Positions 17,654 to 53,967 of a stretch of DNA of 64,000 bases are shown here, one piece after another (position 1 is the stretch's first letter; every line of letters begins with the position of its first letter). The notes beneath the pieces were generated by a model that worked only from the letters and a program-made list of their open reading frames with translations, ran no database searches and was not told where the DNA came from. The position numbers and the translations under genes were made by a program. Origin of the DNA: Olsenella sp. An293 (lineage in GTDB: Bacteria; Actinomycetota; Coriobacteriia; Coriobacteriales; Atopobiaceae). Location: the NCBI RefSeq assembly GCF_002159495.1, contig NZ_NFIT01000008.1, forward strand, positions 1 through 64,000, given 5' to 3'.

Positions 17654-17755
17654 GCGAGAAGGGCCTGCCCCCGCAAGGTCCGCCTCGAGTTCTTGCCACG
17701 CCCTTTGCGGCAAGCTGTCCGAGCGCCGGATCTTGTGGGGGCAAGCCCTTCTCGC
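17654..17755. repeat. variable-arm hairpin element, conserved core (copy D)
   Basis: 29-base arms (17654-17682 and 17727-17755, three mismatches, all allowing G-U pairing) enclose a core that reads CGAGTTCTTGCC ... TGCGGCAAGCTGTCCGAGCG. The core matches those at 43341, 53021 and 53151 although the arms differ. It lies just past the gatB stop, where it may also act as the operon terminator. The arm ends carry the frequent CGAGAAG word. Confidence 0.7.
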
Positions 17756-19263
17756 TACCCCTCGAGCCTCTCGGCGAGCATCTTGTTGAAGGCCTTGGGG
17801 TTGCCGGAGCCCTTGGCCGCCTTCATGCACTGGCCCACGAGGAAGCCGAGCACCTTCTTGTTGCCATCGCGGTACTGCTGGACCTGGTCGGTGCAGCGGC
17901 CGAGCACCTCGTCGACGATCGCGCCGAGCGCGCCCTCGTCCGTGGACTGGCGCATGCCGCGGGCGTCCACGTAGGCGACCGCGTCCTCGTCCGTGCCGTT
18001 GATCGCGTCGAGCACCTCGCGCGCCTGGGCGAACGTGAGCGCGTCCTCGGCGAGAAGGCCGGCGACGCCGCGGACCTGCCCCACGGTGAGGGCGTCGTAG
18101 CTCGGCGCGAGGTTGACCATGACGTTGGCCAGCGTGGGCACGTTCTTCTCGCCCACGCCCTCGAGGGCCTCCTCGAAGAAGGCGGCCACCTTGGGGTCGC
18201 CGGCGAGCTGGGCGGCGTCGGCGCGCTTGAGGCCGTAGTCGGCGACGTAGCGGTCGCGCTTGGCATCGGGCAGCTCGGGGATGCGAGCGCGGCAGCGGTC
18301 GATGAACTCGTCGGTGAGGTCGAAGGGCGCGAGGTCCGGGTCCGGGAAGAGGCGGTAGTCGTCCGCGGTCTCCTTGACGCGCATGACCACGGTGCGGCGG
18401 CGCGAGGGCTCCCAGTGGCGCGTCTCCTGGTAGACGATGCCGCCCTCCTCGAGGACCTCGGCCTGGCGGCAGATCTCGTACTCGAGCGCGTCGTGCAGGC
18501 TCTTGAACGAGTTGATGTTCTTCATCTCGGTCTTGGTGCCAAACTCCGTGGTGCCGCGACGACGCAGCGAGATGTTGCCGTCGCAGCGCATCGAGCCGCT
18601 CTCGAGCGAGCAGTCGGAGATGCCGAGCGTGAGGAAGGTCTGGCGCAGCTTCTCCATGAAGAGGCGCGCCTCCTCGGGCGTGCGCAGGTCGGGCTCGGTG
18701 ACGAGCTCGATGAGCGGGGTGCCGCAGCGGTTGTAGTCGATGAGAGACTCGGTCGCCGCGGTGATGCGGCCCTCCTCGCCGCCCACGTGCACCATCTTGG
18801 CGGCGTCCTCCTCCATGTGGATGCGCAGGATCCGGATGGGCGCGACGTAGCCGCCGTCGGCGTCCTTCTCCACGGTGGCGTCCGGGCGCTCCTTGGCGCC
18901 GGCGCCGGAGACCTCGAGGTCCAGGTGGCCGTGCATGCAGAAGGCCACGGGGCCCTGCGTGGTCTGGAAGTTCTTGGCCATGTCCGGGTAGAAGTAGTGC
19001 TTCCGGTAGAACATGGAGTGGCGCATGATCTCGCAGTTGGTGGCCAGACCCGCCATGACGATCGACTCGATGGCCTTCTCGTTGGGGACGGGCAGGGCGC
19101 CCGGCATGCCCAGGCACACGGGGCAGACGTTGGTGTTGGGCGGGTCGTCGTGGGAGAGGCGGCAGTTGCAGAACATCTTGGTCTCGAGCGTGGTGAGCTC
19201 GGTGTGGACCTCGAGGCCGATCACGGCCTCCCAGTCCCTGAGGACCTCGGCGAGCTTCTTCAT
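17755..19263 (-). CDS. gatB: aspartyl/glutamyl-tRNA(Asn/Gln) amidotransferase subunit B
   Basis: A 502-residue GatB, which phosphorylates and amidates mischarged Glu-tRNA(Gln) or Asp-tRNA(Asn) with ammonia from GatA. Hallmarks are WEAVIGLEVHTELTT at the N-terminus, CPVCLGMPG, the central DYNRCGTPLIELVTEPD and a YqeY-like C-terminal tail (GFLVGQCMKAAKGSGNPK). Its start overlaps the gatA stop by four bases (ATGA), so translation is coupled. Last gene of gatCAB. Confidence 0.95.
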   Translation of the reverse strand: MKKLAEVLRDWEAVIGLEVHTELTTLETKMFCNCRLSHDDPPNTNVCPVCLGMPGALPVPNEKAIESIVMAGLATNCEIMRHSMFYRKHYFYPDMAKNFQTTQGPVAFCMHGHLDLEVSGAGAKERPDATVEKDADGGYVAPIRILRIHMEEDAAKMVHVGGEEGRITAATESLIDYNRCGTPLIELVTEPDLRTPEEARLFMEKLRQTFLTLGISDCSLESGSMRCDGNISLRRRGTTEFGTKTEMKNINSFKSLHDALEYEICRQAEVLEEGGIVYQETRHWEPSRRRTVVMRVKETADDYRLFPDPDLAPFDLTDEFIDRCRARIPELPDAKRDRYVADYGLKRADAAQLAGDPKVAAFFEEALEGVGEKNVPTLANVMVNLAPSYDALTVGQVRGVAGLLAEDALTFAQAREVLDAINGTDEDAVAYVDARGMRQSTDEGALGAIVDEVLGRCTDQVQQYRDGNKKVLGFLVGQCMKAAKGSGNPKAFNKMLAERLEG

Positions 19264-32158: not shown

Positions 32159-32226
32159 GGCCGCCCCCAACATGCACGCAGGACTGCGCTTCGCGGAAGA
32201 TCCTGCTTAGCATGTTGGGGGCGGCC
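32159..32226. terminator. long hairpin with 16-bp perfect arms
   Basis: GGCCGCCCCCAACATG (32159-32174) pairs exactly with 32211-32226. The 36-base apex contains its own GCAGGA/TCCTGC stem. The T-rich CTCTTGCTG follows on the plus strand. It lies 23 bases past the aminopeptidase stop and probably ends that transcript. The layered build (outer stem, separate inner stem) resembles the variable-arm elements elsewhere in the window, though the core differs. Confidence 0.65.
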
Positions 32227-42578: not shown

Positions 42579-43469
42579 CTACCCCAACAGGGCCATGACC
42601 TGGCGCTTGGCGGCGAGGTACTCGTCGGTGAGCTCGAAGTGCTCGCTCTCGACGCGGCTGACCTCGACGACGCCCGCCACGTGACTGGGCTCCCCCGCCG
42701 ACGGCGCGCCCGCGAGCACGTAGATGCGGCTCGCCATGGAGACCGCCTCGTCAACGTCGTGCGTGATCACCAGGGCGGAGAGCCCAAGCTCGGCCGCCAC
42801 GCCCACGAACCAGCGACGCACGTCCGTGCGCGTGAGGGCGTCGAGCGCCGAGAAGGGCTCGTCGAGCAGCGTCACGTCCGCGCCCATGAGGTAGGTGCGC
42901 AAAAACGCCGCGCGCTGGCGCATGCCGCCGGAGAGCTCGCTCGGCCACTTGAGCTCGCAGCCCGCGAGGCCAAAGCGCTCGAAGAGCGGCGCCGCCTTCG
43001 CGCGGGCCTCCGCCTTCTTCGCGCCGGCGAGCACGAGCGGCAAGCACACGTTGTCGATGATGCGGCGGCTCGGCAGCAGCAGGTCCTTCTGGAGCATGTA
43101 GCTCACGCGACCGGGACGTCCGGTCACGTCCTCCCCATGCAGGAGGACGTGACCGGACACAGGAGTCGTGAGGCCGGCGAGCGCATGCAGGATCGTGGTC
43201 TTTCCGCAGCCGGAGCGGCCCACGAGGCAGCAGACCTCGCCCGGCGCGACGTCAACGGACACGCCCTGGACGACGATGTGCTCGCCGTCCCAGGAGAGCG
43301 TCAGGTCGCGCGCCTCGAGCGCAGGCGTTCCCGTCCCTCCGTCGACGTGGCGAGCAGCCCCGGCGCTCGGACAGTCCTCGCCACGCACAGGACGCGCGGC
43401 TGCGGAACTCGCGGCGGGGCTGCTCGCCACGTCGACTGCCCGCACGTGCTTCTCGCCAGCCTCTGCCAT
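42579..43469 (-). CDS. thiZ: ABC transporter ATPase of the thiamine-precursor importer, with palindromic N-terminal insert
   Basis: A 296-residue ABC ATPase. Walker A GRSGCGKTT, signature KWPSELSGGMRQRAAFL, Walker B ADVTLLDEPFSALDALT. It energises import of a pyrimidine thiamine precursor with the adjacent binding protein and permease. Residues ~12-43 are encoded by a 96-bp foldback element (43341-43436) in frame, giving an unusual Ala/Ser-rich N-terminus before the domain begins at LEARDLTLSWDG. The ATG at 43469 is two bases past the binding-protein stop. The symbol follows ThiXYZ usage and the exact substrate is inferred. Confidence 0.85.
   Translation of the reverse strand: MAEAGEKHVRAVDVASSPAASSAAARPVRGEDCPSAGAARHVDGGTGTPALEARDLTLSWDGEHIVVQGVSVDVAPGEVCCLVGRSGCGKTTILHALAGLTTPVSGHVLLHGEDVTGRPGRVSYMLQKDLLLPSRRIIDNVCLPLVLAGAKKAEARAKAAPLFERFGLAGCELKWPSELSGGMRQRAAFLRTYLMGADVTLLDEPFSALDALTRTDVRRWFVGVAAELGLSALVITHDVDEAVSMASRIYVLAGAPSAGEPSHVAGVVEVSRVESEHFELTDEYLAAKRQVMALLG
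43341..43436. repeat. variable-arm hairpin element inside the thiZ-like frame (copy C)
   Basis: Perfect 22-bp arms (43341-43362 and 43415-43436, GTCGACGTGGCGAGCAGCCC and two more bases) enclose a core which in reverse reads CCGCGAGTTCCGCAGCCGCG ... GAGGACTGTCCGAGCGCC, the same core as at 53178-53226. The gene's reading frame passes through it. Confidence 0.75.
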
Positions 43470-47100: not shown

Positions 47101-47195
47101 CAATTGGGGACGTGTTATTTCGTGCAGACGGTTTGGGACAGGTCAAACAGAGACCTGTCCCAAACCGTCTGCACGAAATAACACGTCCCCAATTG
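47101..47195. repeat. layered palindrome with 44-bp perfect arms (copy 1)
   Basis: 47101-47144 and 47152-47195 are exact inverse copies around a 7-base apex. The outer 30 bases (CAATTGGGGACGTGTTATTT and ten more) are identical to the arm segment at 48253-48282. The inner part (GTTTGGGACAGGTC and its inverse) is a further palindrome that occupies the apex position where the other copy has only GAAAG. Confidence 0.9.
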
Positions 47196-48242: not shown

Positions 48243-48330
48243 GGTTCTCTGCCAATTGGGGACGTGTTATTTCGTGCAGACGGAAAGCGTCTGCACGAAA
48301 TAACACGTCCCCAATTGGCAGAGAACCCTA
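48240..48330. terminator. layered palindrome with 43-bp perfect arms, bidirectional terminator site (copy 2)
   Basis: 48240-48282 and 48288-48330 are exact inverse copies with a GAAAG apex. The outer 13 bases (TAGGGTTCTCTGC) are unique to this copy; the inner 30 match copy 1 at 47101. It lies between the ends of convergent genes and includes the dehydrogenase stop codon, so it can act as a terminator for both. Confidence 0.9.
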
Positions 48331-52143: not shown

Positions 52144-52998
52144 ATGAACGAGCAGCGCATCGCCATCATCACGGACTCGGGCACGGACACCCCGGCGGAC
52201 TTCGTCGCCGCCCATGACATTCGCGTCCTGCCGCTGCGCATCAACTACTCCGACGGCTCCACGTACGAGAACGGCGTCGACATCACCGCGCAGGAGGTCG
52301 TCGAGCGCTTTGCCGAGGAGATCCCCACCACGTCGCTGCCCTCCCCCATGAAGATCCGCGACACCTTCGAGCGGGCGCGGCGCGACGGCTACGTGGGCGC
52401 CGTCGTGGTGACCATCTCCTCGGGCCTCTCGGCCACGTTCGAGACCATCGGCATGGTGGCGCGCCAGATGGAGGACTTCCCGGTGGTCATGGTGGACACC
52501 AAGAGCATCGGCATCGCGGCGGGCTTCGTCGTGATGGAGGCTGCGCGCCAGATCGAGGCGGGCATGCCGCTCGACCGCCTGGGCAGCGTCCTTACGGCGG
52601 TGAGCGAGCGCGTGCGCGTGTTCTTCTCGGTCCAGAAGCTCGACTTCCTGCGCAAGGGCGGCCGCATCAGCGAGGCCGTCTACCGCGTGGGCTCCGTCCT
52701 CAACATCAAGCCCGTCCTCACCTGCAGCCCTGAGGGCAAGTATGTCATTGAGAAGAAGGCCCGCGGGTGGCAGCGCGCGCTCGACACGCAGATTTCGCTG
52801 GTGGCCGAGCAGGCTGCGCGCTGGCCGCAGGTGCGCCTGGCGGTCTGCACGTACGACCCCGCGCTGCGCGAGGAGCTCGCGGGGCGCCTGCGCGAACGCA
52901 TCGGCAACGCGGTCGAGATCCTGCAGACCGGGCTCTCCGCCGACCTTCTCGTCCACACCGGCCCCACCCTCGTGGGCATGGGCGTGATGGGGCTGTAG
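52144..52998 (+). CDS. DegV family fatty-acid-binding protein
   Basis: A 284-residue DegV protein. RIAIITDSGTDTPADFVAAH, then VLPLRINYSDGSTYENGVDI, TSLPSPMKIRDTFERA, SSGLSATFETIGMVA and FLRKGGRISEAVYRVGSVLN match FakB-like proteins that present fatty acids to FakA for phosphorylation. No FakA gene is in the window. ATG 52144 follows GAGGGAGAG. Confidence 0.88.
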   Translation: MNEQRIAIITDSGTDTPADFVAAHDIRVLPLRINYSDGSTYENGVDITAQEVVERFAEEIPTTSLPSPMKIRDTFERARRDGYVGAVVVTISSGLSATFETIGMVARQMEDFPVVMVDTKSIGIAAGFVVMEAARQIEAGMPLDRLGSVLTAVSERVRVFFSVQKLDFLRKGGRISEAVYRVGSVLNIKPVLTCSPEGKYVIEKKARGWQRALDTQISLVAEQAARWPQVRLAVCTYDPALREELAGRLRERIGNAVEILQTGLSADLLVHTGPTLVGMGVMGL

Positions 52999-53020: not shown

Positions 53021-53111
53021 GCAGCGGGCGGGCCAACATCCGGCGCTCAAACAGCTTGCCGCAGAGAGCGCGGCAAGAACTCGCGACGGACGTTGGCCCG
53101 CCCGTCGCTGC
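53021..53111. repeat. variable-arm hairpin element (copy A)
   Basis: Arms of about 22-25 bases (53021-53042, 53087-53111; GCAGCG-GGCGGGCCAAC with a small bulge) enclose a core which in reverse reads TCGCGAGTTCTTGCCGCGCT ... GCGGCAAGCTGTTTGAGCGC. It matches the core of copy D almost base for base and lies 40 bases from copy B in the degV-mtnN gap. Confidence 0.75.
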
Positions 53112-53150
53112 TCAACCTGTTGCGCGACGACCGCAAGCACAGGCAGATAA

Positions 53151-53254
53151 GCCGACCCGAGCGCGCCGTTGACGTCCGCCGCGAGTTCCGCAGCCGCGCT
53201 CTTTGCGGCGAGGACTGTCCGAGCGCCGGATGTCAATGGCGCGCTCGGGTCGGC
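53151..53254. repeat. variable-arm hairpin element (copy B)
   Basis: 28-base arms (53151-53178 and 53227-53254; GCCGACCCGAGCGCGCC then TTGAC, two G-T differences) enclose CCGCGAGTTCCGCAGCCGCG ... GCGGCGAGGACTGTCCGAGC. The core equals that inside the thiZ-like gene except at its apex. Opposite orientation to copy A. Either copy could terminate the convergent degV and mtnN transcripts. Confidence 0.75.
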
Positions 53255-53265
53255 GGTCAGGTTGG

Positions 53266-53967
53266 CTAGAGGGCAGCGACCATGTGCTCGACGATCTTGG
53301 CGCAGCGCTCGGCGGAGGCGCGCTCGAAGGTGGCGTAGTCCATGGCCTGGCCCTCGGTTCCCGGCTTGTCGGAAATCGCGCGAACGATGGCGAAGGGCAC
53401 CCCGTTGGCCTCGGCCGCCTGGGCAATCGCGGCTCCCTCCATCTCGCAGCACATGGCCCCGAACTGCTCCACGATGCGACGACGGGTGGACTCGTGGCAG
53501 ACGAACTGGTCGCCCGACGCCACGCGGCCGGCGAGCACGTTGACCTCGGGCGCCGCCGCGGAAGCAGCGGTAAGCGCCGCCTCGCGCAGGGCCGCGTCAG
53601 CGACAAACTCCACCTGCTCGCGGCCGGGGATGAGACCCGGGGTGTAGCCGAGCCCCTCCACCGTGAAGTCGTGCTGGACGCAGTCCGTGGCCACGACGAG
53701 GTCGCCGATGTCGAGGCGGGCGGCGTCGAGCGATCCGGCGATGCCCGTGTTGATAAGGTGCGTGCAGCCGAAGTGGTCGGCCAGGGTCTGGGCGCAGATG
53801 CCGGCGTTCACCTTGCCGACGCCGCACTTGACCACGACCACGTCCTTCTCGCCCAGGCGCCCCGAGCAGAAGTCCGTGCTGGCCACGCGCTCCACGTGCG
53901 CGTCCGCGAGCTCGGCCTTGAGGTGCTCCACCTCGACGTCCATGGCCCCGATGATCCCGATTTTCAT
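53266..53967 (-). CDS. mtnN: 5'-methylthioadenosine/S-adenosylhomocysteine nucleosidase
   Basis: A 233-residue nucleoside hydrolase: MKIGIIGAMDVEVEHLKAEL, VVVKCGVGKVNAGICAQTLA, LINTGIAGSLD, CEMEGAAIAQAAEANGVPF and VRAISDKPG with the catalytic aspartate. It cleaves MTA and SAH; the SAH product feeds LuxS, whose gene is 168 bases upstream on the same strand. Confidence 0.93.
   Translation of the reverse strand: MKIGIIGAMDVEVEHLKAELADAHVERVASTDFCSGRLGEKDVVVVKCGVGKVNAGICAQTLADHFGCTHLINTGIAGSLDAARLDIGDLVVATDCVQHDFTVEGLGYTPGLIPGREQVEFVADAALREAALTAASAAAPEVNVLAGRVASGDQFVCHESTRRRIVEQFGAMCCEMEGAAIAQAAEANGVPFAIVRAISDKPGTEGQAMDYATFERASAERCAKIVEHMVAAL

Follow-up and report, generated by a model that had tools for sequence, protein, structure and literature searches.

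Dispersed hairpins with a conserved core and locus-specific arms in Olsenella and other bacteria look like a family of small mobile palindromes

Small repeats of bacterial genomes usually have constant ends. Families of Rickettsia palindromic elements (RPE), which can be inserted in frame within genes, share sequence along their whole length. Integron attC sites form folded hairpins behind genes and have variable parts, their outer boxes being conserved while the centre varies. Repeats of the REP/BIME type, associated with RAYT transposases, are short intergenic palindromes located at gene ends, present in many copies and in inverted pairs, with constant stems tagged by GTAG or CGTC (PMC3733652). 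Template switching between inverted repeats leads to homogenisation of arms and inversion of the spacer (PMC8604942), and has been reported as both the creator and the maintainer of hairpins (PMC8794818).

The hairpins described here in Olsenella sp. An293 invert the usual anatomy. They are a variant of REP/RPE-like palindromic repeats, and look like small mobile palindromes of a family not described before, whose arms are made or rewritten locally. With REP/BIME they share the short palindromic form, the position at gene ends, the number of copies and the inverted pairs, but only their centre is constant and no association with RAYT was seen. Like RPE, they are palindromic and can be inserted in frame within a gene; they differ in having locus-specific arms, and the single intragenic site established is that at 43341-43436. 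The organization of attC sites is reversed in them, with variable outer arms and a conserved centre, and their copies are dispersed, no cassette arrays being seen. Perfect stems, multi-base paired changes and spacer inversion are shared with template-switched hairpins, which are however arbitrary inverted repeats, whereas a conserved core is repeated here (PMC8794818, PMC8604942).

The analysed window comprises 64,000 nucleotides, positions 1 to 64,000 of contig NZ_NFIT01000008.1. Four loci, in which the initial annotation had recognized a shared core, are listed in Table 1 with the adjacent genes. They are the strongest covariance-model matches in the window, scoring 79-97 bits with a model whose training copies included these four loci themselves, while the remaining matches reach at most 30 bits. 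The copies at 53151-53254 and 53021-53111 form a divergent pair, and the former has a folding energy of -81.7 kcal/mol (z = -8.2).

Table 1. Hairpin copies in the window and genes associated with them
Feature	Position	Strand	Arms	Core	Context
Hairpin copy	17654-17755	+	17654-17679, 17730-17755	17680-17729	right behind gatB; core antisense to gatB
gatB	17755-19263	-			precedes hairpin 17654-17755
Hairpin copy	43341-43436	-	43341-43359, 43418-43436	43360-43417	in frame, near N-terminus of ABC-transporter ATPase
ABC-transporter ATPase gene	42579-43469	-			start codon 43467-43469; holds in-frame hairpin insertion
Hairpin copy	53021-53111	-		53040-53089	behind DegV-family gene; core antisense to it
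DegV-family gene	52144-52998	+			precedes hairpin 53021-53111
Hairpin copy	53151-53254	+	53151-53175, 53230-53254	53176-53229	behind MTA/SAH nucleosidase gene; core antisense to it
MTA/SAH nucleosidase gene	53266-53967	-			precedes hairpin 53151-53254

The 2.3-Mb genome has about 34 copies, compared with the four in the window, so the further copies anticipated initially do exist. Elements are about 80-110 bp long. Their conserved core is two-sided, consisting of CCGCCGCGAGTTC and, opposite it, CTGTCYGAGCGCCGG. Its halves enclose a small inner stem, for which at least two sequence types occur: TTGCCGCG/CGGCAAG and CCGCAGCCGC/GCGGCGAGGA. Outer arms of 16-30 bp pair nearly perfectly within a copy, and their sequence differs from locus to locus, in agreement with the proposed constant centre and varying ends. 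CGTC adjoins the core in only part of the copies, and a GTAG tag is absent from their aligned consensus.

Alignment of 22 copies from the An293 genome confirmed that each arm matches its own partner. Pairing is kept in 91% of cells, and in 112 cells both partners have changed and still pair, in contrast to 32 in shuffles; when partners were slid by one to three columns, only 34-48% paired. Outer 12-nt segments of arms have a mean identity of 0.37 between loci. The description of arms as unrelated is slightly too strong for the innermost 2-5 nt (AGGT, ACGT), which are partly common to different loci. An Rfam search of the window gave no match to curated RNA families at gathering score, and a search of distant copies gave only weak chance matches of the miRNA type. 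Core sequences sought as text in papers returned only unrelated hits.

The core is present in nearly all genomes of the genus. Of 299 genomes of the order, 52 contain a loose core pattern, many of them in several copies, as do 19 of the 107 genera sampled. The reversed control pattern gave only about ten hits in total, which excludes chance as a source of the core. Among GTDB genomes, exact core matches were found in Olsenella, Thermophilibacter and Atopobiaceae, and beyond Coriobacteriia in Candidatus Omnitrophota, one Eisenbacteria MAG and one Gemmatimonadetes MAG. Single matches in Halobacterium, Prauserella, Nigerium and an alphaproteobacterial MAG are armless and look like chance. Outside Olsenella, in other genera, the core shrinks to GCGAGTT...TGTCYGAGCG. 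In four genomes (G066, G091, G294 and G310) it is GCGAGTTCCGCAGCGMAGCGAGGACTGTCYGAGCG, with distinct arms in most copies, and one group of copies in G294 has alike arms. It had been considered initially that the core might elsewhere always be found with the same arms. This applies to UBA2337 and SH-MAG3, two of the Omnitrophota, Eisenbacteria and Gemmatimonadetes genomes, where the arms look near-constant; it does not apply to Coriobacteriia, Omnitrophota OFTM55 and the Eisenbacteria MAG, where arms are locus-specific. The core was not found in the viral contigs searched, and the plasmids searched gave no match. A minimal core, GCGAGTTCTTGCGAAGCAAGCTGTCTGAGCG, is identical in five species at one locus (L463, G000:C1:135280, with counterparts in G006, G013, G016 and G018). 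Its GCGAAGC loop is an unusually stable DNA mini-hairpin.

We have also addressed the placement of copies with regard to genes, which were predicted in this G+C-rich genome with a gene caller based on codon usage. Most copies in the An293 genome lie directly 3' of stop codons. In a tally by eye, the core is antisense to the preceding gene in 21 copies and sense in 2. The bias recurs elsewhere: counted likewise by eye, the ratio is about 18:3 in another family of the order and about 11:3 in Omnitrophota OFTM55. Close pairs in the An293 genome are divergent in 8 of 8 cases, as follows if each of two genes has its own antisense copy. Copies in OFTM55 are mostly on the same strand within a contig, and orientation by replication strand was considered as the cause. 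For copies in the An293 genome, the direction of the preceding gene seems the better explanation, because convergent genes bear opposite copies. In the 3.4-Mb genome G066, all eight copies are on the minus strand of contig 1, from 17 kb to 3.2 Mb. Regarding folding energy, neither strand is consistently better, and different genomes give opposite answers.

To characterize sites without the hairpin, orthologous sites of 21 loci were taken from relatives, and core-less sites were compared with a filled ortholog. Both arms were present in 0 of 40 core-less sites and one arm in two of them; the latter look like deletion remnants. Orthologous sites either have the entire hairpin or lack it, with no stem there beforehand, and copies are patchy and turn over between close relatives. 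Furthermore, sister species may bear quite different hairpins at one locus. Behind gatB, some relatives have the main core, and several others a second core, ACGCAGGACTGCGCTTCGCGGAAGATCCTGCTTA, in its own perfect arms. Given stemless core-less sites and differing hairpins of sister species, the core does not seem to drop into a standing stem, as one of two initial proposals had it; hairpin and core arrive together. The other proposal, creation of arms together with the core, fits better, as the clean empty site of 43341-43436 is stemless, although coordinated arm changes occur after insertion as well. Stem and core are gained and lost together. The ACGCAGGACTGCGCTTCGCGGAAGATCCTGCTTA-core hairpins make up a second family of like design, with two copies in the An293 genome; one is at window positions 32161-32224, where this core is placed in locus-specific arms (GGCCGCCCCCAACATGC).

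The copy at 43341-43436 is inserted in frame after the sequence MAQAGEKNV (MAEAGEKHV in the An293 genome) of the ABC-transporter ATPase. Alignable insertions at this site are present in G000, G006 and G013, while the core inserted in G016 has the reverse orientation. G018 and G009 carry the gene uninterrupted and read MAQAGEKNVAPALEARDL. The counted insert lengths, 114, 108 and 99 nt, are all multiples of three. MITEs have constant terminal inverted repeats and a target-site duplication; here the ends vary by locus outside UBA2337 and SH-MAG3, and inspection of the clean empty site by eye showed no duplication. Empty G018 and filled G006 differ by only 1.8% over the next 600 bp, and the insertion is present in G013, which is more distant (about 12%). 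Empty G018 is therefore nested among filled relatives, indicating exact filling or emptying more than once, or allele exchange.

Evolution of arms was followed in orthologous copies with arms at least 75% similar. In these pairs of species, which are not phylogenetically independent, 65 arm positions have undergone changes in both partners that preserve pairing, 27 by transitions and 38 by transversions. Transversion pairs cannot go via a G-U intermediate. Single changes in the same set amount to 37 outside arm position 2 and 13 at position 2. Orthologs diverge by 11.9% in arms and 4.0% in cores, i.e. arms change about three times faster. At several sites, including the one behind the nucleosidase gene, the core is inverted between orthologs with alike arms. 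Multi-base paired arm changes and spacer inversion, the two marks of template-switch-shaped hairpins, are thus both found. In genome G040, the locus behind the MTA/SAH nucleosidase gene (L123) contains a near-perfect palindrome, each arm measuring about 50 bp, which spans the interval between the TGA stop of one gene and the TCA stop of its convergent neighbour.

Paired arm change, core flips and stemless empty sites fit DNA-level template switching on a small mobile palindrome. Arm covariation is also expected if the hairpins are a structured RNA, either 3'-UTR or antisense, with an internal loop serving as the binding site of a protein or ligand and with arms that are simply stems under compensatory selection. 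Nucleotides conserved on both sides of the internal loop are in line with this, as are wobbles near the core. On the core strand, family f2 has 35 G-T against 1 A-C in this part, mostly at positions 3 and 5-7, and arm position 2 in Olsenella has 33 G-T against 0 A-C. Because of these strand-specific wobbles, the stem part next to the core is probably recognized jointly with it; the wobbles also argue against a purely mutational account and suggest that one strand, perhaps as RNA, is functional when folded. However, the rest of the Olsenella arms shows no G-T excess on the core strand (7 G-T, 18 A-C), and compensatory changes are mostly transversions. Patchy copies with turnover between close relatives, an intragenic copy, cores that run antisense to the neighbouring gene, the lack of an Rfam match and the absence of a consistently better folding strand also speak against structured RNA, which we regard as unlikely. 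Another explanation is that long terminator stems belong to the individual genes, and that a repeat core dropped into their loops. Location behind stop codons would be natural for terminators, and T content after the hairpin on the gene strand is raised in OFTM55 (0.45 vs 0.34), indicating that a terminator role is possible there. An intrinsic terminator consists of a stem and a U tract, and in the An293 genome there is no T tract (0.22 vs 0.18). The explanation is further weakened by the lack of a bare orthologous stem at any of the core-less sites and by the intragenic 43341 copy, the empty form of whose gene is stemless, and we consider it quite improbable.

Mobilization as REP-like repeats by Y1 (RAYT) transposases of the genus was weighed as well, given that most genomes of the genus have such transposases and that short palindromes behind genes, in inverted pairs, are typical of REP. 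None of the 12 Y1 loci searched contains the core (one weak 21-bit hit), three inspected Y1 loci adjoin GGGGAC palindromes or an unrelated stem, and G005 has 17 copies yet no Y1 match. REP stems are, in addition, constant. Y1 transposases are an unlikely mover, and the REP-like reading as a whole is highly improbable. The explanation that we favour, with about as much confidence as reservation, is a family of very small non-autonomous mobile palindromes, with arms built on site by fold-back synthesis and maintained or rewritten by template switching. Patchy spread over several phyla supports it; no mobilising gene was found. The core would be a binding site for a putative hairpin-recognizing enzyme or protein; such binding would account for its being conserved even where it interrupts a coding gene. 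As its imperfections are left "uncorrected", the core must be under selection or subject to recognition. Fold-back (template-switch) DNA synthesis may build or extend the arms, either during insertion or shortly afterwards; on-site creation is suggested by the absence of stems at empty sites and by unrelated arms, and no source of arms was traced to the flank. Later template switching between arms would keep them perfect, rewrite them in concert and flip the core. The position behind genes may reflect tolerance or use in transcription end, rather than a cause of spread. A bolder version, which we consider doubtful but worth stating, is a new kind of mobile DNA, a cross-phylum core of 35-60 nt that is exactly inserted and removed by a putative enzyme building locus-specific palindromic arms from the target. 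Making arms on site, if true, is to our knowledge an insertion mode not described for any known element. Small mobile palindromes of this kind bear on the origin of long perfect hairpins behind genes, and in close relatives they provide a natural replicate set for tracing how hairpins arise, change their arms in pairs, invert their core and disappear.

In addition, long perfect hairpins of a GGGGACGTGTTATTTCGTGCAGACG repeat were observed in the window at 47107-47189 and 48249-48321, the second being extended by further site-specific arms (AGGGTTCTCTGCC/GGCAGAGAACCCT) as far as a TAG stop codon. Palindromes with GGGGAC adjoin some of the Y1 transposase genes. The word GCGAGAAGRACG is strongly over-represented in the whole window (13 found, 0.4 expected), and GCGAGAAG is enriched between genes. 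The motif is met again in hairpin arms and may serve as a signal for uptake or chromosome handling.
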